A program made the translations under genes and the position numbers. Source: Isoptericola halalbus (lineage in GTDB: Bacteria > Actinomycetota > Actinomycetes > Actinomycetales > Cellulomonadaceae). From it: a stretch of 33,917 bases of DNA. Below are positions 3,596 to 31,689 of this stretch, piece after piece. Below the pieces are notes generated by a model. That model was given only the letters and a program-made list of their open reading frames with translations, ran no database searches and was not told where the DNA came from. The number at the start of each line of letters is the position of its first letter. The first letter of the stretch is position 1. Where the stretch lies: NCBI GenBank assembly GCA_009663185.1, contig VJZX01000028.1:4996-38912 (forward strand). Reading direction: 5' to 3'.

Positions 3596-6178
3596 TCACT
3601 CGACGGCGATGTCGTCCGGTTCGCGGTCGTCGCGCCAGCCGCGCCACACGGCGGCGCGCAGCCGCGCCTCCGCGACCAGGTCGGGGTCGGTCGGGTCGGC
3701 CGTCCAGTCCGCGTACTCGACCTCGCCCACGAGCCGCGGCGTGACCCAACGCGTGTACCGGGCCTCGAGGCGCGGGACTCCGTCGAGCGGGGGAGTGGCG
3801 CGCTGGATCGCGCGCAGCCGGGACGCGATCTCGCGGCGCTCCTTCTCACGGAACCCGGTGCCGACCTTGCCCACGTAGCGCAGCGCCCCGCCGTCGGTCC
3901 CGGCTCCGTCGGCCGCCGGCTCGGGGAGGGCGAGCAGGAGCGCGCCCATGGTGCGGTCGTCCTCACGAGCGTCGCCGGCATGCATGGGCCGCCAGCCCAC
4001 GACGACGACCTCCTGCATGCGTGAGTGCTTGAGCTTGAGCCACTGGCGCGAGCGCCGCCCCGCCGCGTAGGTCGAGTCCCGGCGCTTGGCCAGCACGCCC
4101 TCGAGCCGCAGCTCGCGCGAGGTCTTGATCGCGGCGTCGAGGTCGCCCTCGAACGCGGGCGGCACATGCACGGGACGTTTCGGCCGCACCACCTGCTCGA
4201 GCAGCTCGCGGCGCTCGTCGTACGTCCGGTCGGTCACGGGCTCGCCCGCGAGCGCCACGACGTCGAACAGCATGAGGTCGACCTTCACCTTGCGTCGCGC
4301 GGCCTCGACGTCGCCCTTGCGCTGCAGGTTCGCGCGCTGCTGCAGTCGGCGGAACTGCGGGCGGCCGCGCGCGTCGAGCGCCACGATCTCGCCGTCGAGC
4401 ACCGCGGGCAGGTCGTCGGGGTCGAGCATGCCGGCGAGCGCCTGCAGCTCCGGATAGGTCACGGTCATGTCGAGGCCCGCGCGGCTCGTCAGCCGCACCT
4501 CGGGCTCACCGTCGGCCGGTCCGTCGGTCGGTCTGGCGACGGTCGCGAGGGTGCGGAAGCCGTCCCACTTCATCTCGAACGCCCACGCGTCCGGGTCGAG
4601 ACCGCGCAGCTCGCGCGGCGTCGCGGAGGTCGCGAGCATGGGCCGGCCCGGCAGCCAGGCCTTCGTCTCGCGGCCCGACGCCGGCCGTCGGGTCGGCCGG
4701 TCGTGCCCGGTCGCGGGGCGCTCGTCGGGCGGGGCGTCGCCGGGCTGGTCCTTGGTGCGGTGGATGAGCCAGCTGTTCTCGTCGCCGTCCCGGCCGCCCG
4801 TCTGGATGAGGGCGAGGCGGCGCGAGCCGCGACGCTCCGAGTGCAGCGTGACGATGACCTCCTTGCCGTCGACCCACTTCTCCAGCTCGTAGGTGCCCGC
4901 GTCCCAGATGGTGACCGCGCCGGCCCCGTACTCACCGGCGGGGATCGTGCCCTCGAAGCCGCCGTACTCGAGCGGGTGGTCCTCGGTCTGCACCGCGAGG
5001 TGGTTCTTGGCCGGGTTGGTCGGCTCGCCCTTGGGCAGCGCCCAGCTCACGAGCACGCCGTCGTGCTCGAGCCGGAAGTCCCAGTGCAGGCGGCGCGCGT
5101 GGTGCTCCTGGATGACGAACGTGGCGGCGTCGGTGCCGTGCCCGTCCCCGCCGTGCGGCGCGTCCGGGCCGAAGGGCTCTGGCGTCTTGCCCGGGTCCCG
5201 CTTGGACCGGTAGATCTCGAGCCGCTCGAACGTCGCCATGCGCTCGGGCGTGGGCTCGAGCGCCGCGAGGTGGCCCTGGGTGAGCTCGGCCAGCAGGTCT
5301 CCGTCGCGCTCGACGCGCTCGAGCACCTCGGGGTACTCGAGGTGGCGCAGGTCAGGGTCGTCGAGCTCGTCCCAGGTGCGCGGCGCGGCGACCGTCGGGT
5401 GGTCGCGGCCACGCAGCGAGTAGGGCGCGATCGTCGTCTTGTTCTCGTTGTTCTGCGACCAGTCGACGAGCACCTTGCCGCCGCGCAGGGACTTCTTCAT
5501 GTCGCTGACCACGAGGTCCGGGTGCTCGGACTCGAGGTACCGCGCGAGCTCCTTGGCGACGGCCGAGACGGCGTCCGACGACAGCGACTCGGAGCCGCCC
5601 CCGACGCCGAGCGCCGCGTACAGGTGGATGCCCTTGGACCCGCTCGTCACGGGCATCGGGTCGAGGCCCATGCCGACGAGGATCGCCCGCGCACGCCGCG
5701 CGACCTCCGCGCACTCGGGCAGGCCGGCGCCCGGGCCGGGGTCGAGGTCGAGCACGAGCCGGTCCGGGTCGTGGTGCACGCCCGTGCGCCCGAACTGCCA
5801 CTGCGGCACGTGGATCTCGAGCGTCGCGGTCTGGCCGAGCCACGTCAGGGTCGCCAGGTCGTTGACCAGCACGTAGTCGTTCGCGCTGCTCTTGTGCTGG
5901 ATGCGTCGCGTGCGCACCCACGACGGCGTGGAGCTCTCGGCGTTCTTCTGGAAGAACACCTGCCCCTCGACGCCGTCGGGCCAGCGCTTGCGCGTCGCGG
6001 GGCGGTTGGCCGCGTGCGGGATGAGCACGGGGGCGATCTGCGCGAGATAGTGCAGCACCTCGCCCTTGGTGGTGCCCGTGGCGGGGTAGAGGACCTTGTC
6101 GAGGTTGGTCAGCTGGAGCCGGTGCCCCTCGACGGTCACCGTCTGCGGTGCGCCGGTGGAGGCGGAGGACCGTGCCAT
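3596..6178 (-). CDS. ligD: Multifunctional ATP-dependent DNA ligase D
   Basis: 860-residue non-homologous end-joining enzyme with the mycobacterial domain order. The polymerase/primase domain (about 10-300) has catalytic D144 and D146 in LVLDLDPGPG and a third Asp near 239 (VLVDWSQN). The 3'-phosphoesterase domain (about 350-480) has H359, H365 and D367 in EHHARRLHWDFRLE and H401 in TEDHPLEYGG. The ATP-dependent ligase domain (about 510-860) has nucleotidyl Lys537 in FEMKWDGFR. It fills, trims and seals broken ends with Ku, which is encoded 7 kb away at 13180. ATG 6178 is divergent from the mycoredoxin remnant with only 33 nt between them. No obvious -10 is seen for ligD. Confidence 0.96.
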   Translation of the reverse strand: MARSSASTGAPQTVTVEGHRLQLTNLDKVLYPATGTTKGEVLHYLAQIAPVLIPHAANRPATRKRWPDGVEGQVFFQKNAESSTPSWVRTRRIQHKSSANDYVLVNDLATLTWLGQTATLEIHVPQWQFGRTGVHHDPDRLVLDLDPGPGAGLPECAEVARRARAILVGMGLDPMPVTSGSKGIHLYAALGVGGGSESLSSDAVSAVAKELARYLESEHPDLVVSDMKKSLRGGKVLVDWSQNNENKTTIAPYSLRGRDHPTVAAPRTWDELDDPDLRHLEYPEVLERVERDGDLLAELTQGHLAALEPTPERMATFERLEIYRSKRDPGKTPEPFGPDAPHGGDGHGTDAATFVIQEHHARRLHWDFRLEHDGVLVSWALPKGEPTNPAKNHLAVQTEDHPLEYGGFEGTIPAGEYGAGAVTIWDAGTYELEKWVDGKEVIVTLHSERRGSRRLALIQTGGRDGDENSWLIHRTKDQPGDAPPDERPATGHDRPTRRPASGRETKAWLPGRPMLATSATPRELRGLDPDAWAFEMKWDGFRTLATVARPTDGPADGEPEVRLTSRAGLDMTVTYPELQALAGMLDPDDLPAVLDGEIVALDARGRPQFRRLQQRANLQRKGDVEAARRKVKVDLMLFDVVALAGEPVTDRTYDERRELLEQVVRPKRPVHVPPAFEGDLDAAIKTSRELRLEGVLAKRRDSTYAAGRRSRQWLKLKHSRMQEVVVVGWRPMHAGDAREDDRTMGALLLALPEPAADGAGTDGGALRYVGKVGTGFREKERREIASRLRAIQRATPPLDGVPRLEARYTRWVTPRLVGEVEYADWTADPTDPDLVAEARLRAAVWRGWRDDREPDDIAVE

Positions 6179-13053: not shown

Positions 13054-13179
13054 GGTTCGTGCAGCCCTCCTGCCGGCGTCCGCCCCGCCGAGATCACGAC
13101 GAGCGCCACGGGCCACCGGAGGCCGGGGCGGTCGGGCGCGGCAGTGGCGGGACGGCGCAGGTCGGACGACCATGGAGCA

Positions 13180-14130
13180 ATGAGGGCGATCTGGAAGGGC
13201 GCGGTGACCTTCGGCCTCGTCAACGTCCCCGTGAAGGTGTACAGCGCCACCGAGGACCACGACGTTCCCCTGCACCAGGTGCACGACACCGACGGCGGAC
13301 GCATCCGGTACAAGCGGGTCTGCGAGCTCGACGGCGAGGTCGTGCCGTACGAGCACATCGACCGCGCGTACGACGACGGCGAGCGCACCGTGGTCATCAC
13401 CAAGGAGGACCTCGCGTCCCTGCCCGCCGAGAGCAACCGGGAGATCGAGGTCGTCGAGTTCGTGCCGAGCGAGCAGATCGACCCGATCATGTACGACCGC
13501 ACGTACTACCTCGAGCCCGACTCCAAGAGCGCGAAGGCCTACGTGCTGCTGCGCCGCACTCTCGAGGAGACCGACCGGACCGCCGTGGTGAAGTTCGCCC
13601 TGCGCCAGCGCACCCGGCTCGCGGCGCTGCGCGTGCGCGAGGACGTGCTCGTGCTGCAGACCCTGCTGTGGGCCGACGAGGTGCGCGAGCCGGCGTTCGG
13701 CTCGCTCGACGAGGACGTGCGGGTCTCCAGCACCGAGCTCAAGATGTCGCAGCAGCTCGTCTCGAGCTTCGAGTCGGACTTCACGCCCGAGGACTTCGAG
13801 GACGAGTACCAGGTGCAGCTGCGCCAGCTCATCGACGCCAAGATCGAGCAGGGCGAGGCGCTCGACACCGCGGAGACCTTCGGGGCCAAGGCCGAGGGCG
13901 AGGAAGGCGCCGAGGTCATCGACCTCATGGAGGCCCTGCGCCGGAGCGTCGAGAGCGCCAAGGGTGGAGGCAAGGGCGGCGCCAAGGGTGGAGGCGGCGG
14001 CGCCAAGGGGGAGGGCAAGGCCGCGGGCAAGGGCGGGTCCGGCGGCAAGCCCGGAGTCAAGCAGGCGGGCGGCAAGGGCGGCAGGAGCAAGAGCGCGAGC
14101 AAGCAGTCCGAGGAGCGGGTCGCGCGCTGA
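13180..14130 (+). CDS. ku: Ku homodimer protein of non-homologous end joining
   Basis: 316-residue bacterial Ku. It starts MRAIWKGAVTFGLVNVPVKVYSAT and contains HQVHDTDGGRIRYKRVCELDGE and ITKEDLASLP, all characteristic of the Ku core that rings DNA ends. After about residue 255 the protein has a Lys/Gly-rich low-complexity tail (repeats such as AKGGGKGGAKGG), like the extended basic tails of mycobacterial and streptomycete Ku that bind DNA and recruit LigD. ATG 13180 is chosen because the family motif begins immediately; the ribosome-binding site is weak (GGAG only 3 nt away). It would work with LigD (3596-6178), from which it is separated by the arabinose operon. Confidence 0.95.
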   Translation: MRAIWKGAVTFGLVNVPVKVYSATEDHDVPLHQVHDTDGGRIRYKRVCELDGEVVPYEHIDRAYDDGERTVVITKEDLASLPAESNREIEVVEFVPSEQIDPIMYDRTYYLEPDSKSAKAYVLLRRTLEETDRTAVVKFALRQRTRLAALRVREDVLVLQTLLWADEVREPAFGSLDEDVRVSSTELKMSQQLVSSFESDFTPEDFEDEYQVQLRQLIDAKIEQGEALDTAETFGAKAEGEEGAEVIDLMEALRRSVESAKGGGKGGAKGGGGGAKGEGKAAGKGGSGGKPGVKQAGGKGGRSKSASKQSEERVAR

Positions 14131-18723: not shown

Positions 18724-21708
18724 GTGAGCACGCCTGACGCCCAGACCGACGCCGCGGCCCCCGCGGCCGCCGCCCCGAAGGAGCCTTCGTTCCGGTACAC
18801 GCCCGCTCTCGCCGAGCAGATCGAGAAGCGCTGGCAGGACCGGTGGGAGGAGCGGGGCACCTTCCACGCCGCCAACCCGACCGGCGAGCTCACCGACGGT
18901 GACGGCAAGAACGCGGACGCGCTGGGCGACCCGTTCTTCATCATGGACATGTTCCCGTACCCGTCGGGTGCTGGACTGCACGTCGGTCACCCGCTGGGAT
19001 ACATCGCGACCGACGTCGTGGGGCGCTTCCGCATGATGCTGGGCGACAACGTGCTGCACGCGCTCGGCTACGACGCGTTCGGCCTGCCCGCGGAGCAGTA
19101 TGCGGTCGCCACGGGCCAGCACCCGCGCTTCACGACCGAGCAGAACATCGCGAACATGCGCCGCCAGCTGCGGCGCATGGGCCTGGGGCACGACCCGCGC
19201 CGCACGTTCGCCACGATCGACCCCGAGTACGTCCGCTGGACGCAGTGGATCTTCCTGGAGATCTTCGACTCCTGGTACGACCCCGAGCTCGTGCGGCCCG
19301 ACGGCGGCAAGGGCTCCGCGCGCCGCATCGGCGAGCTGCGCGACGAGCTGGCCGCGGGCACCCGCCCGGTTCCTGGCCACGACGGCGACAACGCCGGCGG
19401 CGCGGTCTGGGCCGCACTGTCCGAGGGCGAGCGGCGCGACGTGCTCGACGCGCAGCGCCTGGCGTACGTCGACGAGTCGCCGGTCAACTGGTGCCCGGGC
19501 CTGGGCACCGTGCTGGCCAACGAGGAGGTCACGGCCGACGGGCGTTCGGAGCGCGGCAACTTCCCGGTCTTCCAGCGCAGCCTGCGCCAGTGGAAGATGC
19601 GCATCACCGCCTACGCGGACCGCCTGACCGACGACCTCGAGCTCATCGACTGGCCCGACAAGGTCAAGGCCATGCAGCGGAACTGGATCGGCCGCTCGAC
19701 GGGCGCCAACGTGCGGTTCGACGTCGTCGGCACCTCCGACTACGACGCCGCGGGCGCCGGCGGGCAGCTCGAGGTCTTCACGACCCGCCCCGACACCCTG
19801 TTCGGCGCGACGTTCATGGTCGTGGCGCCCGAGCACCCGCTGCTCGACGAGGTCCCGGCCTCCTGGCCCGACGGGACGCACAGCCCGTGGACCGGCGGTC
19901 ACGCGACCCCGGTCGAGGCGGTCGCCGCCTACCGTGCGCAGGCCGCGGCGAAGACGGCGGTCGAGCGCCAGGCCGACGCGGGCAAGAAGACCGGCGTGTT
20001 CACGGGGCACCTGGCGGTCAACCCCGTCAACGGTGAGATGATCCCGGTGTTCACGGCCGACTACGTGCTCATGGGCTACGGCACGGGCGCGATCATGGCG
20101 GTGCCCGGCGGCGACGCGCGCGACCACGCGTTCGCGGAGGCGTTCGACCTGCCGGTCGTCTACACGGTCGAGCCCGAGGGCGGCTTCGCCGACGGCTTCA
20201 CCGGCGCGTACGCGGGCGAGGGCCGCGGGATCAACTCGGCCAACGCCGAGGTCAGCCTGAACGGGCTGGGCGTGGCCGAGGCCAAGGAGCGCATCACCGC
20301 CTGGCTCGAGGCCAAGGGCGTCGGCGAGGGCACGACGACCTATCGCCTGCGCGACTGGCTGTTCAGCCGCCAGCGGTACTGGGGCGAGCCGTTCCCCATC
20401 CTGTGGGACGAGGCGGACCGCCCGGTCGCGCTGCCCGCCGAGATGCTGCCGGTCGACCTGCCCGACGTGCCCGACTACGCGCCGCGGACGTTCGAGCCCG
20501 ACGACGCGCAGTCCTCGCCCGAGGCGCCGCTGGGCCGCAACGACGAGTGGGTCACGGTCACCCTCGACCTGGGCGACGGTCCGCGGCAGTACCGCCGCGA
20601 CACCAACACGATGCCCAACTGGGCCGGTTCGTGCTGGTACTACCTGCGCTACCTGGACCCGACGGACGCCACGAACGGCTCGCGCGTCGTCGACCCCGGG
20701 CTCGAACGGTACTGGATGGGCCCGCGCCACAACCCGACGTCGGGCCCCGCGGGCGGCGTGGACCTGTACGTGGGCGGCGTCGAGCATGCGGTGCTGCACC
20801 TGCTGTACGCGCGGTTCTGGCACAAGGTGCTCTACGACCTGGGCCACGTGACGTCGATCGAGCCGTTCGGCACCCTGTTCAACCAGGGCTACATCCAGGC
20901 CTACGCGTTCACCGACGCGCGTGGCGCGTACGTGCCCGCGGCCGAGGTCACCGAGGAGCCCGGGCCCGACGGCGAGCCCGTCTTCCGCTGGAACGGCGAA
21001 GTCGTGCAGCGCGAGTACGGGAAGATGGGCAAGTCCCTGAAGAACGTGGTGACGCCCGACGACATGTACGAGGCGTACGGGGCCGACACGTTCCGGGTCT
21101 ACGAGATGTCCATGGGCCCGCTCGACCTGTCGCGGCCGTGGGAGACGCGTGCCGTCGTCGGCTCGCAGCGGTTCCTGCAGCGACTGTGGCGCAACGTCGT
21201 GGACGAGGACACGGGCCGGACCGTCGTCACCGACGGCGCCCCCGACGCCGCGACGCTGCGCGCGCTGCACCGCGCCGTCGCGGACGTGCGCACCGAGATG
21301 GAGCACATGCGGCCCAACACGGCGATCGCCAAGCTCATCACCTACAACAACCACCTGACCGGGCTGGACCGCGTGCCGCGCGCGGCCGTCGAGCCGCTCG
21401 TGCTCATGGTCGCGCCGATCGCCCCGCACATCGCCGAGGAGCTGTGGGAGCGCCTCGGGCACGAGCGGTCGCTCGCGCGCGAGCCGTTCCCCGTCGCCGA
21501 CGCGCGCTACCTGGTCGAGGAGACCGTGACCTGCGTGGTGCAGGTCAAGGGCAAGGTGCGCGGGCGGATCGAGGTGCCGCCGTCGATCTCCGACGACGAC
21601 CTGACCGCCGCGGCGCTCGCCGAGCCCAACGTGGTGCGGGCGATCGACGGGGCGCCGGTGCGCAAGGTCATCGTGCGCGCGCCCAAGCTCGTCAACATCG
21701 TTGTCTGA
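18724..21708 (+). CDS. leuS: Leucyl-tRNA synthetase
   Basis: 994-residue class Ia synthetase charging tRNA-Leu. The HIGH-type motif is HVGH (residues 86-89, in [14 protein letters not shown]) and the KMSKS-type motif is KMGKS (767-771). The CP1 editing domain is present (for example [20 protein letters not shown]). It is longer than the ~860-residue E. coli enzyme because of an Ala/Pro-rich N-terminus and an extra insertion near 190-230, as usual in actinobacteria. GTG 18724 follows TAGACT by 7 nt. The jetA gene begins 12 nt after its stop. Confidence 0.98.
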
Positions 21709-21720
21709 GCACGAGACCTG

Positions 21721-23295
21721 ATGGTGCGGGTCGACGGGGCCTACGAGCGCGCGCGCCGCGCGTTCCAGGGCCCGACGTTGGCGCTGCTGCACCAGCGTCG
21801 GGCTCCGCTCGTCGTCGCGCTACTCGGGGAGTTGTTCACGCCGGAGCGGTCCACCGTGCCCGTCGATGACGCGCACACGGAGGTCGCCGACGCGCTGGCC
21901 CAGCTGCGCGCGGCCGGGCACGAGAACCTGCCCGAGGACTCCGCACGCGACCTGTGCCGCCAGTGGGTCGGCGCGGGCTGGCTCGTGTACCAGGTTGGGG
22001 AGCCGGGTGAGGAGTACCGCCTGACCGCGCATGCGACCGACGCGCTGGACGTCGCGTCCCGCGCGGGCGGCCCCCGGACGAGGGTCACCCGGTCGCGCGT
22101 CCGTACGCTGCTGGACGCCGTCGAGCAGCTTGCCGCGGAGGCCGACCCCGACGTCGAGGCACGGCGCCGGCGCCTCACCCGGGACCTCGAACGGATCCAG
22201 GCCGAGCTCGACGCGCTGGCGACCGACGAGCGCGTCGAGCCCGCGGGCGAGGAGCACCTGCTGGAGTCCGCGGAGAACGTCGTGGCCCTGGTGAGCGACC
22301 TGCCCGCGGACTTCGTGCGCGTCGCGGAGTCGATCCAGACCCTGCAGCGCGACGTGGTGCGCCAGCTGCGCTCGGACGACCGCCCGACGGGCGAGGTCCT
22401 GGGGGCCTATCTGGAGCGCGCCGAGCACCTGCTCGAGGCGACGGCCGAGGGCCGCGCGTTCGCGGGTGCCGTCCGGGTGCTGGGGGACTCCGAGCGCCTC
22501 GACGCTCTCGCGGCGCAGCTCGAGCTCCTGCTCGCGCAGCCGTTCGCCGGCCGCCTCGAGCCCCGGCAGCGCGCAGAGCTGCGCAGCCTCGTCACGCAGC
22601 TCGAGCGAGGCCTGGAGCTCGTGCTCGGCACACAGCGGCGCGCGTCGCACGTGATCGCGACCCAGGTACGGCACCACGACCCGCTGCGCGACCGCCAGGT
22701 CGACGACCTGCTGCGCCGTGCCTTCACGGCGCTCTCCGAGTGGTTCCCGACGACGCGGCGCGGGCAGGACGTCGAGGCGCTGCGACGCCTCCCGCGCGCG
22801 GCACCGGGGCGGCTCCGCACCACCCTCGCCGACCTTCGCCCGCCGGCGCCGCCAGTACCGCTGCGCGACTGGGCCGACGACGACGGTCAGGCCCGCGGCG
22901 AGGGGGCGCAGGGCTGGGGAGGTCCGCGCTACGGCGAGCTGGCGGCGGCCCTCGAGGCCGCGCTGGCCGATGCCGGTGCGTCACCCGGCGCCGACGGCGA
23001 GACGCGCACGGTCGACGTGGCCGCCGTCTTCGAGCGGCTCGGCGACACCGACCGCCGGCCGGTTGACCTGGTCGGCTTGCTCGAGCTGGCGGATCTTCAC
23101 GGCGCGCGCGAGGCAAGCACGGTCAGCACGGTCACCGCCACGCGTCCCGACGGCACGAGAAGGGCCTTCGCGTTCGCCGAGACCGTCGTACCCGTGCACA
23201 ACAGCAGCGAGCCTAAACCGCCCGGTTGCGCGTCTCGAGACGCGGCGCCGTCGGAGGGCGGCGGCCGGGCTGACATCGACGAGGGAGCAGCATGA
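21721..23295 (+). CDS. jetA: Wadjet type I protein JetA (DUF3375, kleisin/MukF-like)
   Basis: 524-residue DUF3375 protein. The N-terminus (ARRAFQGPTLALLHQRRAPLVVALLGELF), the CRQWVGAGWLVY segment, the helical region (about 100-260) and LPADFVRVAESIQTL match the family. In Wadjet, JetA is the kleisin-like bridge of the SMC complex. ATG 21721 starts 12 nt after the leuS stop with only a weak GA-rich ribosome-binding stretch, so it probably depends on read-through and coupling from leuS. It overlaps jetB by ATGA. The last ~36 residues (after VPVHNSSEPKPP) are polar and low-complexity. GTG 21724 is an alternative start. Confidence 0.9.
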   Translation: MVRVDGAYERARRAFQGPTLALLHQRRAPLVVALLGELFTPERSTVPVDDAHTEVADALAQLRAAGHENLPEDSARDLCRQWVGAGWLVYQVGEPGEEYRLTAHATDALDVASRAGGPRTRVTRSRVRTLLDAVEQLAAEADPDVEARRRRLTRDLERIQAELDALATDERVEPAGEEHLLESAENVVALVSDLPADFVRVAESIQTLQRDVVRQLRSDDRPTGEVLGAYLERAEHLLEATAEGRAFAGAVRVLGDSERLDALAAQLELLLAQPFAGRLEPRQRAELRSLVTQLERGLELVLGTQRRASHVIATQVRHHDPLRDRQVDDLLRRAFTALSEWFPTTRRGQDVEALRRLPRAAPGRLRTTLADLRPPAPPVPLRDWADDDGQARGEGAQGWGGPRYGELAAALEAALADAGASPGADGETRTVDVAAVFERLGDTDRRPVDLVGLLELADLHGAREASTVSTVTATRPDGTRRAFAFAETVVPVHNSSEPKPPGCASRDAAPSEGGGRADIDEGAA

Positions 23296-24065
23296 CCAGC
23301 GCACCGGACGGTCCGGCCGTCGACGCCGACGAGCCCGCTGAGCGCGACGGCGAGGCCGCGGCCGATCCGTTCATCCAGCCCGTCCCCGCCGAGGACGACG
23401 AGACGGCGATCTTCCCAGGCGACACCGGGACACTGCCCGCTGCGGTGCGCCAGTCGCTCGTGCGGCTGCTCACCGAACGATATGTCTCGGCGGCTCGTCA
23501 GCCCGCGCTGTGGCGAACCCTGATCGCGAACCAGGCGGTGCTCGAGTCGCGCCTGCACGACCTCTTCGTCCACCTCGTGGTGGACCACGACAGGGGTCTG
23601 GCCTACAAGCGGCAGGTCAGGGAGGCCGCCGGGGAGACGCCGGTGCTGCTACGCGACACGCCGTACACGCGCACGGAGACCGTGATCCTCGTGTACCTGC
23701 GCGCGGAGTACCAGCGCGAGCAGGGTCTCGGCGCCGACGAGGTCCGGGTGGACCTCGAGAGCATCGAAGAGGCGGTGCTGAGCTTCCTGCCCATGGGCGA
23801 CGGCAACCGTGCCGGGCGGCAGAAGGAGGTGCGGAGCGCGCTCGCGCGGCTGGTGCGCGACGGCTTGCTCGTCGAGGAGTCGCAGGGCCGTTACCGCGTC
23901 CTGCCCGTGATCGAGGTGGTACTGAGCGTGCCCAGGCTGGAAGGGCTCGTGTCGTGGCTCACCGCGCAGGTGAGCGAGACCCCGGCCGACAGGGCGACCG
24001 ACGTCGACGACCCGGACGACGTCGACGACGCGGACGAGACGGACGACGAGGAGGACGTGCGGTGA
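23292..24065 (+). CDS. jetB: Wadjet type I protein JetB (DUF4194, MukE/KITE-like)
   Basis: 257-residue DUF4194 protein with winged-helix character. The core runs from LPAAVRQSLVRLLTERYVSA to VIEVVLSVPRL and includes TPYTRTETVILVYLRAEYQRE and RSALARLVRDGLLVEES. In Wadjet it dimerises and clamps the JetA kleisin. The N-terminal ~35 residues and the C-terminus (DVDDPDDVDDADETDDEEDV) are strongly acidic. ATG 23292 overlaps the jetA stop by 4 nt, preceded by GAGGGAGCAGC. Its own stop overlaps the jetC GTG, giving coordinated expression of the complex. Confidence 0.9.
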   Translation: MTSAPDGPAVDADEPAERDGEAAADPFIQPVPAEDDETAIFPGDTGTLPAAVRQSLVRLLTERYVSAARQPALWRTLIANQAVLESRLHDLFVHLVVDHDRGLAYKRQVREAAGETPVLLRDTPYTRTETVILVYLRAEYQREQGLGADEVRVDLESIEEAVLSFLPMGDGNRAGRQKEVRSALARLVRDGLLVEESQGRYRVLPVIEVVLSVPRLEGLVSWLTAQVSETPADRATDVDDPDDVDDADETDDEEDVR

Positions 24066-27000
24066 GCCGGATGGCAGACACGTTGTTCGGGCTGATCCCC
24101 GTCGACTCCACCGGGCAGCAGTGGATTGTCCGGGACCTGCAGCTCGTCAACTGGGGCGGGTACGACGGCGGCCCGCACCGCGTCCGGTTCGCGTCGAGCG
24201 CGACGCTCCTGTCGGGCACGTCGGGATCCGGCAAGTCGACGATGCTCGACGCCTACATCGCGCTCCTCATGCCGCACACCACTCCGTTCAACGGGGCGTC
24301 GAACGGGGGCGTCGTTGGGCGACCTCGTGGCAAGGACCAGCGCAACGTCATCTCCTACGCGCGCGGAAAGCTGGACGAGTCGCGGCACGAAGGCGTCGTG
24401 CGCGAGCGCGTCCTGCGCGGTGACGGCGAGGACACGTGGAGCGCCGTCGCGATGACCTGGGCGGACCAGGCGGGCGAGCTCTTCACCGCGCTGCGCGCCT
24501 ACTACGTGCCGGCCGGCGCCCAGCGGACCGAGGACATCCTGTCCGTGCGCGCTATCGTCCCAGACGCGTTCGACCTCGCCGCGCTGGAACCAGCGGCGCG
24601 GCAGCGGCTGTCCCGTGGCGCCCTGACCGCGCTTGGGCTGACGCACTTCGACACGGACAAGGAGTTCACCGCCCGCCTGTACTCGACGCTCGGCATCGGC
24701 GCGGCGGGCGGCGGCGCCAAGGCTGTCGGGCTCCTCGCGCGGATCCAGGCGGGTCAGCAGATAACCACGGTCGACGCGCTCTACAAGGCGATGGTGCTCG
24801 AGGAGCCCGAGACGCTAGCGGTCGCCGACGAGGCGGTGGACCACTTCGACGACCTGACCAGCACCCGTGAGCAGATGCTCACGGCTCGCCGGCAGGTGCA
24901 GGTGCTCGCCCCGATCCGTGACCAGCGCGCCGGGATTGACGCCGCGACCGACCGGCTTGTGACGATCGACGCCGTCGGCTCGGTGAGTCACGCGGGCAGC
25001 GTCGCGGAACGGTGGCACGACGAACGTCGCCGCGAGCTGCTGGTCGCCCTGGAGGCAGCCACCCGCCGGCGGCACAAGGACGCCGAACGCCGACACATCG
25101 AGGCGCGGGCGCAGCACGCTGCCGCCGCGGAGGAGCTCGACCGGGCGCGCAAGGAGCTCTGGGCCGCAGGCGGCAAGGATGTCGACACCGCCGAGACCGC
25201 CCTTGTTGCCGCTCGAACCCGCTCGGCCGAGACCGAGCGAGCGCGTCGCCGGCTGGACGAGGACCTTGAGCTGCTGGGCGCGCGCGTCCGCACGGCCGCG
25301 GACTTCGAACGGCAGCTGACGGCCTCCCGACAGGCGTTGGCCACGGCCGAGGAGCATCGGAAGGCCGGACGGGACCGGCTGTACGCGGCGCACGACAGGC
25401 AGCGCCGCGCCCGCGCGGAGCTGGACCGCCTCACCGCCGAGCGCGACGGGCTAGGGCGTCGCAGGGGGAACATCCCCGAGAACCTGCACCAAGCCCGCGT
25501 CGCGCTCGCGCACGGCGCCGGCATGACGCCCGAGGAGCTGCCGTTCGTCGCCGAGCTGGTCGAGGTGCGCACCGAGCACGAACCGTGGCGGGAGGCGTTC
25601 AACCTCGCGCTCGGCGGTTTCGCCACGACGCTCCTGGTCGACGAGGAGAGGCTCGGCGCGTTCCGGTCCGTGATCGACGGCGTCGTCATCCGCGAACGGC
25701 TGCATTACGACGGCGTTCCCACAGGGCTTCCTGACGACGTTGCCCGCGACCCGCGGACCATGGCCGGTCGGCTCGACATCAAGCCCGGCCCGTTCGCGGG
25801 CTGGCTCGCGGGCCGCCTGGCCGACGCCTTCTCCCACGTGTGCGTCGAGAGAGCCGACGAGCTGGGCCGCCATCGTCGGGCCCTGACACGGGCCGGGCAG
25901 GCGAGCGACGGGCACCGCGGCGCCCACGGCGGCCACGGGCGCACCAACCTGCTCGGCTTCACGAACGCTCGCCGGCTGGCGCAGCTCGACAACGAGCTCG
26001 CGGCCGCCGAGGCCGAGCTCGTCGCGGCTACCGAGGCGCTGCTCGGCGCCGAGCTCGCGGCCGACGCCTCGGACGAACGCCTTGCCGCCCACCGCCGGAT
26101 GGTGGACGTCGCGTGGGACCGAGTCGACACCGACGCGGCGGCCGCCGAGGTCGAGCGGTGTGAGGCCCAGCTCGCGGAGCTCACAGCGGGCGACGTCGAC
26201 CTCGCGGCGCTGCGTCGCCGGGTGACCACGTTCGACGGCCGGGCCAGCGCCATGCACGCCGAGCTCACGCGCGCCGCGGACGCCGAGCGCAGAGCCGCCC
26301 AGGACTGGGAGCGCGCCGCCGACGAGGGCGACGCCGTCCAGCGACGGATCGACGGCTCTCAAAGCGTGCTCGGAGCCGAGCCGGCTGCCTACCTCGACGG
26401 GTTGCTCGCCGGCGCCCTCACGACGGCGGGAGCGCCGCCACGCGAAGGCGCCGGGTTTCGCGATGCGCTGCCCGAGGATCCGCACGAGGCGCTGACCGCG
26501 TTCGACGGTGCCGCACGCACGCTCGACCGCGCCCGGGCCGCCGAGCGCGAACGTGCCGAGACGGCCGTGCGCACCGGCACCGACGCGCTGCAGCAGGTGT
26601 TCGAACGGTTCCTCGACTTGTGGCCGGACCCCAACCTCGGTACCGACCCGCAGGCTGCGTACGCCGACTTCGAGCGCATCCTCACGGCGCTCGAGACGCA
26701 GAAGCTGCACGAGCTCGAGCAACGGTGGCTCGCGAGCCTCACCCGGCTGTCGGGCAACGACCTCACCGATCTCGACCGGGCGATCGGACGTGCTCTGCGC
26801 GAGATCCGCGAGCGGATCGAGCCGGTCAACGCGATCCTCGCCGGCCTCCCGTTCGCCGACGACCAGCACCGGCTGCGGATCGACCTGCAGGAGATCCGCT
26901 CCGCGGTAGTGCAGCGGTTCCGCCGGGACCTTCGCCAGGTCCGGGAGCTGCTCGCCGGCGATGCGGCTGAGGGAGAGCTCGAGGCGAGATACGCACGGAT

Positions 27001-27448
27001 GCGCTCGGTCATCGACCGCGTGCGGCGCACCAGCCCGGACTTCGCCGAGCTCGTGGACGTGCGTCGCCACGTGCGAGTGAGCGCCGAGAAGATCGACCTC
27101 GACGGCCGCCACGTCGCCCTGTACGACCACATCGGCGAGAAGTCCGGAGGCGAGTCGCAGGAGCTCGTGGCGTTCATTGTCGGTGCGGCGCTCCGATACC
27201 AGCTGGGCGACGCGTCCGCCGACCGTCCCCGGTACGCGCCAGTACTCCTCGACGAGGCGCTCATCAAGGCCGACGCCCGGTTCGCCGGTCGTGCCGTCGG
27301 CGCGTGGCGCGGGCTCGGCTTCCAGCTCATCATCGCCGCGCCTCTCGACAAGGTGAGCGCCTTGGAGCCGCACGTCGACGCCGTCTACGAGATCGTCAAG
27401 ACCGCGGACGGTCGCTCTCGTGCCCTCGCCCTCGTGCCCGTGCCGTGA
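24062..27448 (+). CDS. jetC: Wadjet type I SMC-like ATPase JetC
   Basis: 1128-residue MukB/SbcC-like ATPase. Walker A is GTSGSGKST (52-60), the ABC signature SGGES is at 1028-1032 (GEKSGGESQELVAF), and Walker B is VLLDEA with D1064/E1065. Between them lie long Ala/Glu/Arg-rich coiled coils with a central hinge-like region around the ELPFVAELVEVRTEH segment. It is the motor that loads on DNA and extrudes loops. GTG 24062 overlaps the jetB stop (GTGA) and has GAGGAGG 7 nt upstream; ATG 24071 is an alternative. It ends with a GTGA overlap with jetD. All catalytic residues appear intact, so the system is probably active. Confidence 0.94.
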   Translation: MSRMADTLFGLIPVDSTGQQWIVRDLQLVNWGGYDGGPHRVRFASSATLLSGTSGSGKSTMLDAYIALLMPHTTPFNGASNGGVVGRPRGKDQRNVISYARGKLDESRHEGVVRERVLRGDGEDTWSAVAMTWADQAGELFTALRAYYVPAGAQRTEDILSVRAIVPDAFDLAALEPAARQRLSRGALTALGLTHFDTDKEFTARLYSTLGIGAAGGGAKAVGLLARIQAGQQITTVDALYKAMVLEEPETLAVADEAVDHFDDLTSTREQMLTARRQVQVLAPIRDQRAGIDAATDRLVTIDAVGSVSHAGSVAERWHDERRRELLVALEAATRRRHKDAERRHIEARAQHAAAAEELDRARKELWAAGGKDVDTAETALVAARTRSAETERARRRLDEDLELLGARVRTAADFERQLTASRQALATAEEHRKAGRDRLYAAHDRQRRARAELDRLTAERDGLGRRRGNIPENLHQARVALAHGAGMTPEELPFVAELVEVRTEHEPWREAFNLALGGFATTLLVDEERLGAFRSVIDGVVIRERLHYDGVPTGLPDDVARDPRTMAGRLDIKPGPFAGWLAGRLADAFSHVCVERADELGRHRRALTRAGQASDGHRGAHGGHGRTNLLGFTNARRLAQLDNELAAAEAELVAATEALLGAELAADASDERLAAHRRMVDVAWDRVDTDAAAAEVERCEAQLAELTAGDVDLAALRRRVTTFDGRASAMHAELTRAADAERRAAQDWERAADEGDAVQRRIDGSQSVLGAEPAAYLDGLLAGALTTAGAPPREGAGFRDALPEDPHEALTAFDGAARTLDRARAAERERAETAVRTGTDALQQVFERFLDLWPDPNLGTDPQAAYADFERILTALETQKLHELEQRWLASLTRLSGNDLTDLDRAIGRALREIRERIEPVNAILAGLPFADDQHRLRIDLQEIRSAVVQRFRRDLRQVRELLAGDAAEGELEARYARMRSVIDRVRRTSPDFAELVDVRRHVRVSAEKIDLDGRHVALYDHIGEKSGGESQELVAFIVGAALRYQLGDASADRPRYAPVLLDEALIKADARFAGRAVGAWRGLGFQLIIAAPLDKVSALEPHVDAVYEIVKTADGRSRALALVPVP

Positions 27449-28644
27449 GCGGCTACGTCTCAGTGCCGGACGCGCTCGCACAGGTGGCGCGACAGGTCGA
27501 GGAACGCTGGGCGGAGGCGGTGTGCGGAGGCGCGCCCTTCTTCGGTGTCCGGTCCCTCGGGGCGCCGCGCAGCGACGCAGACGTGACCGACGTGGGCGCG
27601 TTCGAGGCGTGGCGGCAGGAGTGGGTGCGCCTGCCGCGTGACCTCGGCGACGACCGTGTCGTCGTGACATGCCGGGAGGTGTCGGTCGGACGTGTCCGGT
27701 ACAGGGCGCCGACCGTCCTGCGGCTGGCGGACCTGGACACCGCGGTCAGGGTGACCGGGCGGGGTGCCGCGCTCGTCGCCCACGGGCGCCAGGTGCACGC
27801 CCGCCTGGTTGAACAGGGCTGCACCTTGACGCCGGGCCTGCTGCGCGCAGCGACGGCGCTCGCCGATGTGGACCGCGAAGTCCTGGTCGGGGTGCTCGAC
27901 TGGGTGCAGGGGATCGCGGACCTTGGCGCGTGGACCGCGCGCCAGGTCCCGGTCCCGGGCGCCCACTCGAAGTGGCTCGAGACGCACAAGCGGCTGGTGG
28001 ACGGCCTGTCGGGGCGCGCGGCGCTCGCCGAATTGAACCCGCGACCCGCTCACGTCGTCTTCACGTACCTGGACCCCGACCACCGTGGGGCCGGCCGGCG
28101 CAGCCACGACTCGTGGACCGCGGGCGACGTCGTCGACCTCGCGTACGCACCCGACGTTGTGATCGTTGTGGAGAACCGCGACTCCCGCCTGTTCTTCCCC
28201 GATCTGCCGCGCGCGATCGCCGTCGAAGGAGGAGGTACTGCGGCCGCGTCGGCGCTGGCCTCCCTGCCGTGGCTCCCCCGGGTGCGGCACATCGTCTACT
28301 GGGGCGACGTCGACTGCTGGGGGTTCGAGATCCTCGATCGCCTGCGCGGTGCGCTGGGGCCGGACCGAGTATCGAGCATTCTCATGGACCGCGCTGCGGT
28401 GGACCGGTACCGGAACCTTGGCACCTTCCACCACCCCGACGGCAGCCCGATCGAGCCACGCCGTCGGAACCTCGCGCACCTGACGCCGTCGGAGCGCGCC
28501 GCCTACGCTGCCGTGAACGATCTTGCCTCTGGCGCCCCGCCACGGATCGAGCAGGAACGGATCCCGCTCTCGGACGCCGGGTCCGCGCTCGCGCGCACGG
28601 TTGCACGTTCCAGCATGCGATGGCGCAAGGATGCACGTCGATGA
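27445..28644 (+). CDS. jetD: Wadjet type I nuclease JetD (DUF3322/DUF2220, Toprim-like)
   Basis: 399-residue protein with an N-terminal DUF3322 region (about 10-190, containing CREVSVGRVRYRAPT and VPGAHSKWLETHKRLV) and a C-terminal DUF2220 Toprim-like domain. The metal-binding acids are visible: E243 in VVENRDSRLFFP, D288 and D290 in YWGDVDCWGFEIL, and nearby E295. In Wadjet, JetD cuts circular DNA after loop extrusion by JetABC. GTG 27445 overlaps the jetC stop by 4 nt. Directly after the stop comes the remnant of a toxin-antitoxin locus. Confidence 0.92.
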   Translation: MSGYVSVPDALAQVARQVEERWAEAVCGGAPFFGVRSLGAPRSDADVTDVGAFEAWRQEWVRLPRDLGDDRVVVTCREVSVGRVRYRAPTVLRLADLDTAVRVTGRGAALVAHGRQVHARLVEQGCTLTPGLLRAATALADVDREVLVGVLDWVQGIADLGAWTARQVPVPGAHSKWLETHKRLVDGLSGRAALAELNPRPAHVVFTYLDPDHRGAGRRSHDSWTAGDVVDLAYAPDVVIVVENRDSRLFFPDLPRAIAVEGGGTAAASALASLPWLPRVRHIVYWGDVDCWGFEILDRLRGALGPDRVSSILMDRAAVDRYRNLGTFHHPDGSPIEPRRRNLAHLTPSERAAYAAVNDLASGAPPRIEQERIPLSDAGSALARTVARSSMRWRKDARR

Positions 28645-28683
28645 TCCACGGCACGTCGGAAGACGAACCGCCGGCCCAGAGCC

Positions 28684-28773
28684 AGCGCGGCCAGGGAGGG
28701 CGTCTGGCTCTCCGAGCTGGCACTGACCGAGCTGCGCCGCTCACTCGAGAAGGCAGGGACAAGTCCGACTGGT
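28684..28773 (+). pseudogene. Remnant of a ribbon-helix-helix antitoxin (FitA/VapB-like)
   Basis: In the frame that continues past the jetD stop, the stretch SAAREGVWLSELALTELRRS followed by LEKAG matches the second half of a ribbon-helix-helix antitoxin (AAREGxSLSEL...LR pattern). No start codon or N-terminal beta-strand precedes it; the sequence upstream belongs to jetD. It sits immediately before the VapC-like fragment, where the antitoxin gene is expected. Identification rests on a short pattern plus context. Confidence 0.45.
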
Positions 28774-29069
28774 GATCGTCCTCGACTCGTCCGCGGCGGT
28801 TCGAGCGGCTGCCCGGCCGGCAGGGTGCGGCCAGGGTCCACGCGAACCTTGCCCATCCCGACGTCACCGCCCACGCCCCCGCACTCCTTCCGGTCGAGGC
28901 GCTCGCGACCGTGCGCGGTCTGGTCCAAGGCCGGTACGCGTCCGTCGAGCGCGGCGCCGAGGCGACCGCCAAACCTGATCGCGACCGACGTGACGTGTCA
29001 CGACCCGCTCATCCTGCTGGACCGCGCGTGGGAGTCCGCGACATCCTGTCAGTGCACGACGCCGTGTAC
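28772..29069 (+). pseudogene. Decayed VapC/FitB-like PIN-domain toxin
   Basis: Pieces of a PIN-domain ribonuclease toxin follow in the correct order but in changing frames. The start VIVLDSSAAV (GTG 28772) carries the first catalytic Asp. After a shift near 28801 comes VHANLAHPDVTAHAPALLPV followed by EALATVRGL, with the conserved Glu. After another near 28971 comes NLIATDVTCHDPLILLDRAW. After a third near 29033 comes VRDILSVHDAVY with the last conserved Asp. Three or more frame changes in 300 bases mean real decay rather than one sequencing error. It was probably once a cassette with the antitoxin just upstream. Confidence 0.75.
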
Positions 29070-29175
29070 CGCCCGACGTCGTGCTGCTGGCGGTCAAGGA
29101 CGACGGCGGCAGGTCTCGGCTCGTGACACTCGTCGGCGTGTGATGCAATTGGCGGAACTGGCGGTCCACGGCGGG
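29070..29175 (+). other. Unassigned spacer after the toxin relic
   Basis: A short open stretch encodes PDVVLLAVKDDGGRSRLVTL and ends at a TGA at 29141-29143; it does not match the expected end of a PIN protein and could be part of another decayed gene. Nothing else recognisable lies before the glgP promoter. Confidence 0.3.
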
Positions 29176-29204: not shown

Positions 29205-29211
29205 CGTCCCC

Positions 29212-31689
29212 GTGACCGAGTCGACCCCCCTGATCGCCACCCCCGAGCACAACGTGGAGGGGTTCGTGCGGGAGTACCTGCGCGAGCTGAACTTCTCCCA
29301 GGGCACCGTGCTCGAGCGGGCCAGCGTGAACGACAAGTACCTGGCGCTCGCGCGCACGGTGCGCCTCTACCTCATGGCTCGCTGGATGCGCACCACCGCG
29401 GACCAGATCCGCAGCCAGCCCAAGACTGTCGCGTACCTGTCGGCCGAGTTTCTCCTCGGTCGCCAGCTCGACAACGCGCTCATCGCCTCGGACCTCGAGG
29501 AGATCGCGCGCGACGGCCTGACGTCGCTCGGCGTCGACATCGACGAGCTGCGCGGCGCCGAGGTCGAGCCGGGCCTCGGCAACGGCGGCCTCGGCCGCCT
29601 CGCGGCGTGCTTCATCGACTCCCTCGCGACGATGTCCGTCCCCGCGATCGGCTACGGCATCCGCTACGACTACGGCATCTTCCGCCAGACGTTCGTCGAC
29701 GGGTGTCAGGTCGAGGAACCCGACAACTGGCTCGACAACGGCTCGCCGTGGGAGTTCGCCCACCCCGAGCACGAGGTCACCGTCAGCTTCGGCGGGCACA
29801 CCGAGAAGTACACCGACGACGCAGGGCGGGAGCGCTCCCGCTGGATCCCCGGCTGGCAGGTCCTGGGCGTCCCGTACAACTACATGGTCCCCGGCTACCG
29901 CAACGGCCGGGTCAACACGCTGCGGCTCTGGAGCGCCCGGGCGACGCACGCGTTCGACCTGAAGATCTTCAACCACGGTGACTACGCCGAGGCCGTGCGC
30001 GCGCGGACGTTCGCCGAGAACATCTCGAAGGTTCTCTACCCCGAGGACTCGACGCCGCAGGGCAAGGAGCTGCGACTGCAGCAGCAGTACTTCTTCGTCG
30101 CCTGCTCGCTGCGCGACTTCATCGACCAGCTCCTCCCCGAGGGCTTCGACCTGCGCCGGCTGCCCGAGCGGATCATCTTCCAGCTGAACGACACGCACCC
30201 GGTCATCGCGATCCCCGAGCTCATGCGGATCCTCGTCGACGAGCAGGGCTTCGAGTGGGACGAGGCCTGGGCCACCACGAAGCAGTGCTTCGCCTACACG
30301 TGCCACACGCTGCTGCCCGAGGCGCTCGAGGTGTGGCCCGTCGAGCTGATGGGCCGGCTCCTGCCGCGTCACCTCGAGATCATCTACCGCATCAACGACG
30401 ACTTCCTCGACGAGGTGCGCGAGGCCACGGGCGGCGACGAGCAGCTCGAGCGGCGCATGTCGATCATCGCGGAGTACCCCAACCAGGCCGTGCGCATGGC
30501 GTATCTCGCCACCGTCGCGGGCGCGAAGGTCAACGGCGTGGCCGAGCTGCACAGCCAGCTCCTGCGCGACAAGGTGTTGACGGACTTCGCGAACTTCTTC
30601 CCGGAGAAGTTCACCAACGTCACCAACGGCATCACGCCGCGCCGGTTCGTCCGCCTCGCCAACCCGGGCCTGTCCGGCCTCATCACCGAGGCGATCGGCG
30701 ACGGCTGGGTCACCGACCTCGACAGGCTGCGCGAGCTCGAGCCGCTCGCCGACGACGCTGAGTTCCGTCGCCGCTTCCGCGAGGTCAAGGCCGCCAACAA
30801 GGACCGGCTCGTCCGCCTGCTCGCGGCGCGCGACGGCATCGAGATCGACCCGGGCACGATGCTCGACGTCATGGTCAAGCGCCTGCACGAGTACAAGCGC
30901 CAGACGCTCAAGCTGCTGCACGTCGTGACGCTGTACGACCGCATCACGTCGGGCGAGCTCGCCACCCGGGACGTCCCGCCGCGCACCGTGGTCTTCGGGG
31001 CCAAGGCCGCGCCCGGCTACAAGATGGCCAAGGAGATCATCGCGCTCATCAACCACGTGGGGTCGGTCGTCAACGCCGATCCCGAGGTGTCGAAGGTGCT
31101 GCGCGTCGCGTTCCCGGCGAACTACAACGTCACCGTCGCCGAGACGCTCATCCCTGCCGCGGACCTGTCCGAGCAGATCTCGCTCGCGGGCAAGGAGGCG
31201 TCGGGCACCGGCAACATGAAGTTCGCGCTCAACGGCGCGCTCACGATCGGGACCGACGACGGCGCGAACGTCGAGATCCGTCAGCTCGTGGGCGACGACC
31301 ACTTCTTCCTGTTCGGCCTCACCGAGCCCGAGGCGTGCGCGATCGCCGAGGCGGGCTACCGGCCGTCGTCGTACTACGAGCAGAACGCGTCGCTGCGCAA
31401 CGCGCTCGACCTCATCGCCAAGGGCACGTTCTCCGACGGCGACGCCGGGAGGTTCGAGCCGGTCGTGGCGAACCTGCTCGGCGAGGACAGGTTCATGGTG
31501 CTCGCCGACTACCAGTCGTACCTCGACGCCCAGGAGCGGGTCGACGCCGCCTACACCGACGCCGACGCCTGGAGCCGGTCGGCGGTGCTCAACGTCGCGC
31601 GGTCGGGCTTCTTCTCGTCCGACCGCTCGATGCGGGACTACCTCGACCGCATCTGGCACGCCGAATCTCTGCCCGCCAGCGGTCGCTGA
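29212..31689 (+). CDS. glgP: Glycogen/starch/maltodextrin phosphorylase
   Basis: 825-residue PLP-dependent GT35 phosphorylase releasing glucose-1-phosphate from alpha-1,4-glucans. Family landmarks include YLSAEFLLGRQLDNAL, EPGLGNGGLGRLAACFIDSLA, GYGIRYDYGIF, QLNDTHPVIAIPELMRI and KRLHEYKRQ, and the PLP lysine K670 in GTGNMKFALNGALTIGTDDG. Length is normal for the bacterial/E. coli-type branch. GTG 29212 is supported by the promoter 7 nt upstream; the longer open frame upstream only covers the toxin relic. No other glycogen gene is adjacent, so it is a stand-alone unit ending in a GC-rich hairpin. Confidence 0.97.
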   Translation: MTESTPLIATPEHNVEGFVREYLRELNFSQGTVLERASVNDKYLALARTVRLYLMARWMRTTADQIRSQPKTVAYLSAEFLLGRQLDNALIASDLEEIARDGLTSLGVDIDELRGAEVEPGLGNGGLGRLAACFIDSLATMSVPAIGYGIRYDYGIFRQTFVDGCQVEEPDNWLDNGSPWEFAHPEHEVTVSFGGHTEKYTDDAGRERSRWIPGWQVLGVPYNYMVPGYRNGRVNTLRLWSARATHAFDLKIFNHGDYAEAVRARTFAENISKVLYPEDSTPQGKELRLQQQYFFVACSLRDFIDQLLPEGFDLRRLPERIIFQLNDTHPVIAIPELMRILVDEQGFEWDEAWATTKQCFAYTCHTLLPEALEVWPVELMGRLLPRHLEIIYRINDDFLDEVREATGGDEQLERRMSIIAEYPNQAVRMAYLATVAGAKVNGVAELHSQLLRDKVLTDFANFFPEKFTNVTNGITPRRFVRLANPGLSGLITEAIGDGWVTDLDRLRELEPLADDAEFRRRFREVKAANKDRLVRLLAARDGIEIDPGTMLDVMVKRLHEYKRQTLKLLHVVTLYDRITSGELATRDVPPRTVVFGAKAAPGYKMAKEIIALINHVGSVVNADPEVSKVLRVAFPANYNVTVAETLIPAADLSEQISLAGKEASGTGNMKFALNGALTIGTDDGANVEIRQLVGDDHFFLFGLTEPEACAIAEAGYRPSSYYEQNASLRNALDLIAKGTFSDGDAGRFEPVVANLLGEDRFMVLADYQSYLDAQERVDAAYTDADAWSRSAVLNVARSGFFSSDRSMRDYLDRIWHAESLPASGR

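Follow-up and report, generated by a model that had tools for sequence, protein, structure and literature searches.

Among described systems, Wadjet type I, known from solved structures of Escherichia coli (8as8, 8q72), of Pseudomonas aeruginosa JetD (7til) and of JetABC (8dk1-8dk3), shares with the operon considered here its four subunits, gene order and active-site residues, although the proteins of the window (the 33,917 nucleotides of the Isoptericola halalbus contig analyzed here) are remote from the solved type I chains (JetC E 1e-51; JetD E 7e-5 and 5e-4). Studied Wadjet type I systems also differ in setting, as the window operon occupies a fixed housekeeping locus at which its relatives lack jetD. 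Corynebacterium glutamicum MksBEFG is likewise actinobacterial and made of four subunits, and its MksG (8b7f) is the solved chain closest to the window JetD in both sequence (E 4.5e-15) and fold (Foldseek E 6e-22), but this system, a feature of which is polar, DivIVA-linked localization, lies at a different locus, adjoining adhA (PMC10123090). The MksBEF condensin of P. aeruginosa, comprising SMC, kleisin and KITE subunits beside Smc-ScpAB and having no MksG/JetD, parallels the jetD-less operons of the relatives. The window operon departs from it in having jetD, and the actinobacterial operons differ as DUF3375/DUF4194 type I relatives. The relation and interconversion of condensins and plasmid-cutting Wadjets are called unresolved in section 7 of PMC10586767, and a reported survey frequency for Wadjet is 42% among Actinobacteria compared with 7% among others (PMC10482375).

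The jet operon and its products

The operon consists of four intact open frames in the order jetA-jetB-jetC-jetD, each overlapping the next (jetB overlaps jetA by 4 bases):

21,721 to 23,295, forward strand: jetA, kleisin-like subunit (DUF3375), 524 aa; from Pfam, PADLOC and solved chains
23,292 to 24,065, forward strand: jetB, KITE subunit (DUF4194), 257 aa; from Pfam, PADLOC and solved chains
24,062 to 27,448, forward strand: jetC, MukB-like SMC ATPase; from PADLOC, solved JetC and ATPase motifs
27,445 to 28,644, forward strand: jetD, Toprim nuclease (DUF3322 + JetD_C), 399 aa; from Pfam, an AlphaFold model and invariant acids

The jetA product matches Pfam DUF3375 with 371 bits (cut-off 28.6) and the solved JetA chains 8as8, 8q72, 9qxt and 8dk1, and the jetB product matches DUF4194 with 132 bits (cut-off 32.7) and the solved JetB chains 8dk1, 8as8 and 9qxt. 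JetC scores 75 bits to SbcC_Walker_B and 71 bits to AAA_29 (cut-off 27 each), aligns with solved JetC 8dk2 over residues 18-1106 (numbered from base 24,065), and retains Walker A (GTSGSGKS), signature (SGGESQ) and Walker B (VLLDEA) motifs in its translation. The mechanically assigned start at 23,510 is probably wrong, the likely candidates being the GTG at 24,062, which shares a GTGA with the jetB stop codon, and the ATG at 24,071. JetD, which scores 118 bits to JetD_C and 57 bits to DUF3322 (cut-off 22 each), likewise starts at a GTG in a GTGA overlap with the jetC stop (27,445, not 27,304). The best PADLOC matches are all type I models (JetA1 E 7e-180, JetB1 8e-87, JetC1 E 0 with 1472 bits, JetD1 1e-74); in NCBIfam, none of the four proteins exceeded the cut-off.

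The preliminary description had taken 21,721 to 28,644 for a complete and apparently intact Wadjet type I jetABCD operon with the order DUF3375, DUF4194, MukB-like ATPase, DUF3322/DUF2220. PADLOC, Pfam, the motifs and the nuclease acids bear this out, the order being confirmed by Pfam and the frame positions, and the searches for PF11855, PF13835 or DUF2220, failure of which it had named as grounds for abandoning the reading, returned matches. Its statement that the window has no other clear defence system holds among the 10 other window proteins searched with PADLOC, except that the DtxR-like regulator gave one marginal match (mad1, E 0.001).

Loss of catalytic residues from JetD had also been named as a ground for doubt, but E243, D288, D290 and E371 are invariant in all 15 aligned JetD sequences, a set in which some JetD starts were chosen mechanically and are short. 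On the pattern of Toprim enzymes we take D288, D290 and E371 to be active-site acids further to E243. The counterpart of E243 in E. coli JetD is E248, which PDB 8q72 carries mutated to Ala. An AlphaFold model of JetD (pLDDT 90.7) matches C. glutamicum MksG 8b7f (Foldseek E 6e-22) and P. aeruginosa JetD 7til; although significant, these matches superpose only loosely when the full chain is considered (TM 0.46 for 8b7f and 0.37-0.39 for 7til, rmsd 9-16), so that the arrangement of the two domains is provisional. The nearest JetDs are 42-48% identical to that of the window. JetC and JetD distances are correlated (r 0.88 over 15 pairs and 0.86 over 13 pairs, neither reached in any of 5000 permutations), indicating that JetD belongs with its own JetC.

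In the studied system, the N-terminal JetB motif contacting JetD is IFDR (PMC10586767), and window JetB has IFPGD at this position. We set the motif aside as an indicator of JetD binding because it does not discriminate, its F being invariant alike in 11 rows with JetD and 70 without (93 of 100 JetB frames could be anchored), and because the trimming anchor is partly circular, demanding the adjacent GD-x-G, the invariance of which is consequently uninformative.

By analogy with its family, we predict that JetC dimers together with JetA (kleisin) and JetB (KITE) would act as an SMC motor that uses ATP to extrude DNA loops. Once a small closed circle had been extruded completely, the stalled motors would switch on JetD, whose Toprim site would cut the circle; the chromosome and linear DNA would be spared. 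The family is expected to confer resistance to small circular DNA.

The leuS-glgP site in the genus

Taken alone, the operon is an ordinary Wadjet type I, an already known defence system. The unusual point is that its relatives keep the motor at the same chromosomal site without the DNA-cutting enzyme, whereas the window has the nuclease. The site is bounded as follows:

18,724 to 21,708, forward strand: leuS, flanking gene 12 bases upstream of jetA; from Pfam leucyl-tRNA synthetase domains
28,842 to 29,072, forward strand: PIN-domain (VapC-like) gene remnant in the jetD-glgP interval; from a match to an ORF in genome G050
29,206 to 31,689, forward strand: glgP, glycogen phosphorylase, downstream flank; from Pfam Phosphorylase, 1048 bits

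All 17 other genus genomes carry jetABC without jetD at this site. LeuS adjoins the operon in 16 of these, the 17th (G015) reaching its contig end, and glgP follows jetC in 16, not being seen in the stretch covered for G012. The preliminary description had proposed natural jet-negative relatives for comparison, but the genus sample contains none (JetC is present in 18/18 genomes, as is ScpA), and the natural contrast is jetD-negative. The congener jetABC genes have intact ATPase motifs and low dN/dS, with purifying selection in nine congener pairs. This conservation of a nuclease-less motor, together with the position of the window operon 12 bases after leuS, would also suit an operon that is silent or non-functional as defence and acts only as a DNA-organizing SMC complex. 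We regard this as quite unlikely for the window, whose jetD is intact, keeps its invariant acids and overlaps the jetC stop codon.

Two places in which the missing nuclease might be sought were considered and rejected. Relocation of JetD within the genus genomes is not seen, as JetD_C was found in 4 of the 18, namely that of the window and three carrying a separate, divergent Wadjet (JetC 31-37% identical to window JetC). Nor does a conserved downstream gene substitute for it: in composition-filtered clustering of ORFs from the first 4 kb downstream of 84 jetD-less or unresolved loci, the one cluster with more than 4 loci was glgP (17).

The spacing between jetC and glgP is ∼1 kb in six congeners, in which the gap is taken up by a convergent gene whose product, judged from its sequence, seems to be secreted and not a nuclease, and 2.4 kb in G014. 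In the window, residues 23-99 of an open piece at 28,776 to 29,123 match a 216-aa ORF in G050 (37%, E 1e-5) that scores 44 bits to Pfam PIN; Pfam detected no PIN domain in the window remnant pieces downstream of jetD themselves.

Origin of the jet block

Comparison of the window with its closest relatives by flanking genes (G015-G017) delimits a segment that looks like an in-place replacement:

21,711 to 29,073, no strand: apparent replacement segment, differing from the same site in congeners; from blastn against G015-G017

Homology on the leuS side stops at 21,710 against G016 (91%) and restarts on the glgP side at 29,074 against all three genomes. Between these points only jetABC aligns, at 67-74% in blastn pieces lying wholly inside the block. 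A sharp left edge is seen only with G016, in whose contig leuS is represented by 512 bases; with G017, one 82% piece passes from the flank into jetA as far as 22,784. The window flanks are closest to G015-G017 (against G017, leuS 91%, glgP 92% and dtxR 89%), and the glgP tree, from which G012 was left out, places the window inside the genus as sister to these three genomes (SH-aLRT 96). The window jet genes are only 44-53% identical to theirs (jetA/B/C 45/44/52% against G017), while G017 jetC is 69-94% identical to jetC of the other 16 congeners. Window JetC falls outside the clade of 17 genus JetCs, and forcing it beside G015-G017 lowers the log-likelihood by 367 units (p-AU 9e-5). Trees were built with FastTree or, for glgP and the position tests, with quick IQ-TREE runs, all without bootstraps.

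These results reject vertical descent of window jetC at the position predicted by its flanks. Plain vertical inheritance, in which the window lineage kept jetD, its congeners lost it and jetABC diverged fast, has in its favour the shared chromosomal site and the likelihood that JetD is ancestral, as JetC and JetD distances match and jetD remnants show loss in relatives. We consider it very unlikely given the conflicting placements of flanks and jetC, and jet genes so dissimilar where leuS and glgP are ∼90% identical.

We conclude that the operon is very probably a complete Wadjet type I anti-plasmid system that replaced, in situ, the jetD-less jetABC of the genus at leuS-glgP, a swap that would have put a nuclease back where the resident operon normally lacks one. 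A foreign donor of these genes is less certain. A single deep clade uniting window JetC with the JetCs of all 17 congeners is not rejected (p-AU 0.49), which limits the claim of a foreign donor and makes an old second allele in the lineage possible. Two ancient operons in the genus ancestor, sorted differently as hidden paralogs or old alleles, would need no foreign donor, and the second, quite different Wadjet of three congeners lends this some plausibility. It is nevertheless unlikely, as every genome would have had to lose one of the copies at this one site, and none of the 18 genomes showed two window-type copies. No close donor operon was found among the genomes compared; the nearest JetCs among the matches listed are 64% identical (G020 and G035), and both lack jetD.

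Misassembly that fused a contaminating Wadjet operon to the contig is extremely improbable. Although the draft assembly comprises 110 contigs, a single contig of 38.9 kb spans the block together with its two flanks, and the changes coincide with gene ends; estimated contamination is 0.46%, and the GC of the block resembles that of the flanks. JetA, JetC and JetD_C each have one match in this genome, and the native genus-type jetC is accordingly not found elsewhere in the assembly.

JetD beyond the genus

The family and order samples are drawn subsets of 150 and 297 genomes. In the family sample JetA was found in 122 genomes and JetD in 22, and the PF09983 profile may miss a very divergent JetD. 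On the JetC tree JetD comes and goes with at least 11 changes. JetCs with at least 46% identity were grouped by us as window type (at least 73 long matches and at least 8 in pieces). In part of the searches, this one among them, scoring covered some of the candidates in each genome, so that a second copy can escape notice, and the weakest matches were not listed. The 80 loci are the best 80 of 197 relatives and are thus biased toward this type, and counts from our two collections are not additive, some genomes being common to both (for example G020 = L023 and G053 = L049). Contig ends do not account for the jetD-less loci, as only 10 of the 80 have <1.3 kb downstream, and these were set aside as unresolved. 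The JetD match of G111 crosses one TAG and was counted as adjacent. With a JetD HMM trimmed of the upstream frame overlapping jetC, the stub at L055 (E 0.08) scored little better than the best match on the reverse strands of the same stretches, which served as control (E 1.0).

We tentatively propose, as a reading that may well prove wrong, that JetD-less JetABC serves Cellulomonadaceae and neighbouring actinobacteria as a core second condensin, domesticated and repeatedly disarmed through JetD loss with its motor under purifying selection, that JetD is a detachable effector, and that the window was rearmed through a JetABCD swap at leuS-glgP. If so, actinobacterial "Wadjet" annotations resting on JetA-C alone would denote something other than anti-plasmid defence. 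Nuclease-less operons may be counted in Wadjet frequencies, which would apply to the survey figures cited above only if the caller used there accepts JetD-less loci. It may be asked whether JetABC without JetD organizes the chromosome, holds plasmids back without cutting them or borrows a nuclease. The proposal would also mean that the same SMC machine occurs naturally at one site in forms with and without a nuclease, and the presence of the motor with and without the nuclease at the same site in close relatives makes the relation of condensins to Wadjets testable.

A four-gene operon beside leuS

The genome is a 4.1-Mb draft in 110 contigs, of which the window covers bases 4996-38912 of contig C32, with a GC content of 68-77% per kb. 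Four jet frames begin 12 bases after leuS. The longer mechanical ORFs for jetC and jetD extend back into the preceding gene, and both genes most likely start at GTG codons overlapping the preceding stop.

Features of the window
3596-6178 (-), LigD-type ligase, full length
13144-14130 (+), Ku gene (bacterial end joining)
21721-23295, jetA, open frame
23292-24065, jetB, open frame
24062-27448, jetC, start most likely GTG 24062
27445-28644, jetD, start most likely GTG 27445
28842-29072, decayed PIN-domain (VapC-like) gene in open piece 28776-29123, within the putatively exchanged block and ending at its right edge

PADLOC assigned each of the four proteins to a Wadjet type I subunit, Pfam gave matching domains in each, and the margins were wide in both; solved chains of the named subunits were matched by all four, and no NCBIfam profile scored above cut-off against them. 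The four-gene Wadjet type I operon named in the preliminary description is thus confirmed by its frames, PADLOC, Pfam and solved-chain matches, and the further claim that it is complete and apparently intact is supported by the ATPase motifs of JetC and the nuclease acids of JetD, which inspection and alignment of the sequences indicate are kept. The operon itself belongs to the already known Wadjet type I. The predicted JetD structure (pLDDT 90.7, pTM 0.68; 14 sequences used) matched only Corynebacterium glutamicum MksG and Pseudomonas aeruginosa JetD at E <0.001, in both cases loosely over the entire chain (TM 0.37-0.46, rmsd 9-16). Elsewhere in the window, the LigD-type ligase and Ku genes flank a sugar-transport-like gene cluster; the proximity of double-strand-break repair genes to a DNA-cutting defence may be chance.

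The leuS-glgP site within the genus

All 18 genus genomes encode a JetC homologue, as well as ScpA, and four match the JetD profile JetD_C: the window genome and the congeners G007, G012 and G017, in which JetD_C adjoins a second, distant JetC (31-37% identity to window JetC). Besides a jetD-less operon at leuS, each of these three has a further, divergent Wadjet that includes a jetD (G007:C18, G012:C10, G017:C1 at ~1.205 Mb), so that the jetD-plus and jetD-minus states occur in one cell. Over the part fetched for each congener, the genes run dtxR-leuS-jetA-jetB-jetC-glgP-degV, with leuS adjoining jetA in 16/17 (G015 meets a contig end) and glgP following jetC in 16/17 (in G012 it lies outside the fetched stretch), at a spacing of ~1 to 2.4 kb in 7 of the 16. 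Searches of the first 1.5 kb 3' of jetC, and of longer stretches with window JetD, found neither jetD nor a jetD remnant in the 17 congeners. In six congeners (loci L113, L114, L116, L117, L118 and L122), the ~1-kb gap between jetC and glgP, where the window has jetD, contains a convergent frame; these frames are related, are 274-332 codons long and begin with what resembles a signal peptide.

The Walker A, signature and Walker B motifs are kept in all 17 congener JetCs, and dN/dS over nine congener pairs is low (jetC 0.09-0.14, jetB 0.04-0.22, jetA 0.09-0.28), compared with 0.07-0.13 over 8 pairs for glgP and 0.09-0.23 over 7 pairs for leuS. These intact motifs and low ratios suggest that the jetD-less operon is maintained in working order.

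The window flanks are nearest to G015-G017 (identity to G017: leuS 91%, glgP 92%, dtxR 89%), and the glgP tree places the window beside these congeners, inside the genus, with a support of 96. Identity to G017 is 45% for jetA, 44% for jetB and 52% for jetC, whereas the G017 jetC shares 69-94% identity with its counterparts in the other 16 congeners. Forcing window JetC to the G015-G017 position costs 367 log units (p-AU 9e-5), and forcing it into a wider nine-row subclade costs 310.5 (p 8e-5). Homology to G016 stops 2 bases past the leuS stop, at 21710, and that to G015-G017 restarts at 29074, upstream of glgP; the left edge rests on G016 because a single blastn piece against G017 continues from leuS into jetA. 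Since a single deep clade uniting window JetC with the 17 JetCs of the genus gave p 0.49, window jetC may be an old divergent allele. No near donor was found: the best JetC, at 64% identity, is in the family genomes G020 and G035, whose sites read leuS-jetABC-glgP without jetD. The simplest account of these sequence comparisons is an in-place exchange of ~7.4 kb, in which jetABC would have given way to jetABCD and a decayed PIN-domain gene. Searches with JetA, JetC and JetD_C each gave a single match in the window genome, and an intact relative of the PIN remnant is present in the family genome G050 (Pfam PIN, 44 bits).

Spread of the jetD-less state

Among 80 loci (the best 80 of 197 relatives), jetD is near full length in 12, broken in three and absent from 55, read over 3 kb downstream or as much as the contig holds; ten end too soon to tell. 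In one of the 12, L022, the match begins at model position 23. The broken copies comprise an internal deletion (L030), a split and partly missing gene (L071) and a weak N-terminal stub (L055). In the 150-genome family sample, JetA occurs in 122 genomes and JetD_C in 22, all within the 122. JetC of the window type, a grouping that we defined as ≥46% identity to window JetC, occurs in 81 of the 150; eight of these have jetD beside it, in another two contig ends may separate the genes, and 64 lack a JetD_C match anywhere in the genome. Of 297 genomes sampled from the order, 123 have JetA and 67 have JetD_C; JetA occurs without JetD in 60, and the reverse holds for 4.

Other, more distant operons, identified by JetA and JetC alone, occur in three genera (g8, g20 and g23), with JetC pieces 24-33% identical to the window. 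No JetD match was found at any of the 11 such loci read (L174-L184, in G036, G056, G071, G095, G039, G073, G086, G024, G048, G064 and G091), and these genera possibly represent several independent nuclease-less lineages. jetABC also occurs on a large plasmid: a 220-kb Mycolicibacterium fortuitum plasmid (L144; CP089609.1, 43316-58606) has jetA, which is annotated in two frames, together with jetB and jetC, and no jetD is annotated beside them.

In a FastTree phylogeny of 100 JetC rows, the copies that have jetD are dispersed over the tree. State changes number at least 11, a count that leaves out broken and unresolved rows and that alone cannot separate gain from loss. Some sister pairs differ: for instance, Cellulomonas phragmiteti has jetD and C. 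avistercoris lacks it, and Myceligenerans indicum has it and M. pegani lacks it. Distances among the JetCs agree with those among the JetDs (Mantel r 0.88 for 15 pairs and 0.86 for 13 pairs; 0/5000 permutations reached either), which fits a long partnership. Given this agreement and the remnants that evidence jetD loss in two clear cases, L030 and L071, the scattered pattern fits loss rather than gain.

Known parallels and predicted phenotypes

Open-licence PMC literature yielded no description of a widespread conserved jetD-less state in the family and its neighbours or of in-place rearming of a jet operon, and nothing on Wadjet together with Cellulomonas. Part of an Actinobacteria survey reports a high Wadjet frequency, and missing JetD goes unmentioned in that part (PMC10482375). 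Our best guess, by analogy, is that the mechanism of studied Wadjets, as described in parts of three reports (PMC10586767; PMC12287153; PMC10123090), applies to the window operon: JetABC would perform loop extrusion on circular DNA and, on small circles, meet itself, after which JetD would cut the circle. The jetD-less operons find their closest worked parallel in the P. aeruginosa condensin MksBEF. In contrast, the four-subunit MksBEFG of C. glutamicum acts on plasmids, not on chromosome folding, according to part of the relevant report (PMC7083940). Taken as models, MksBEF and MksBEFG lead to opposite phenotype predictions for the jetD-minus and jetD-plus states of the leuS-glgP site.
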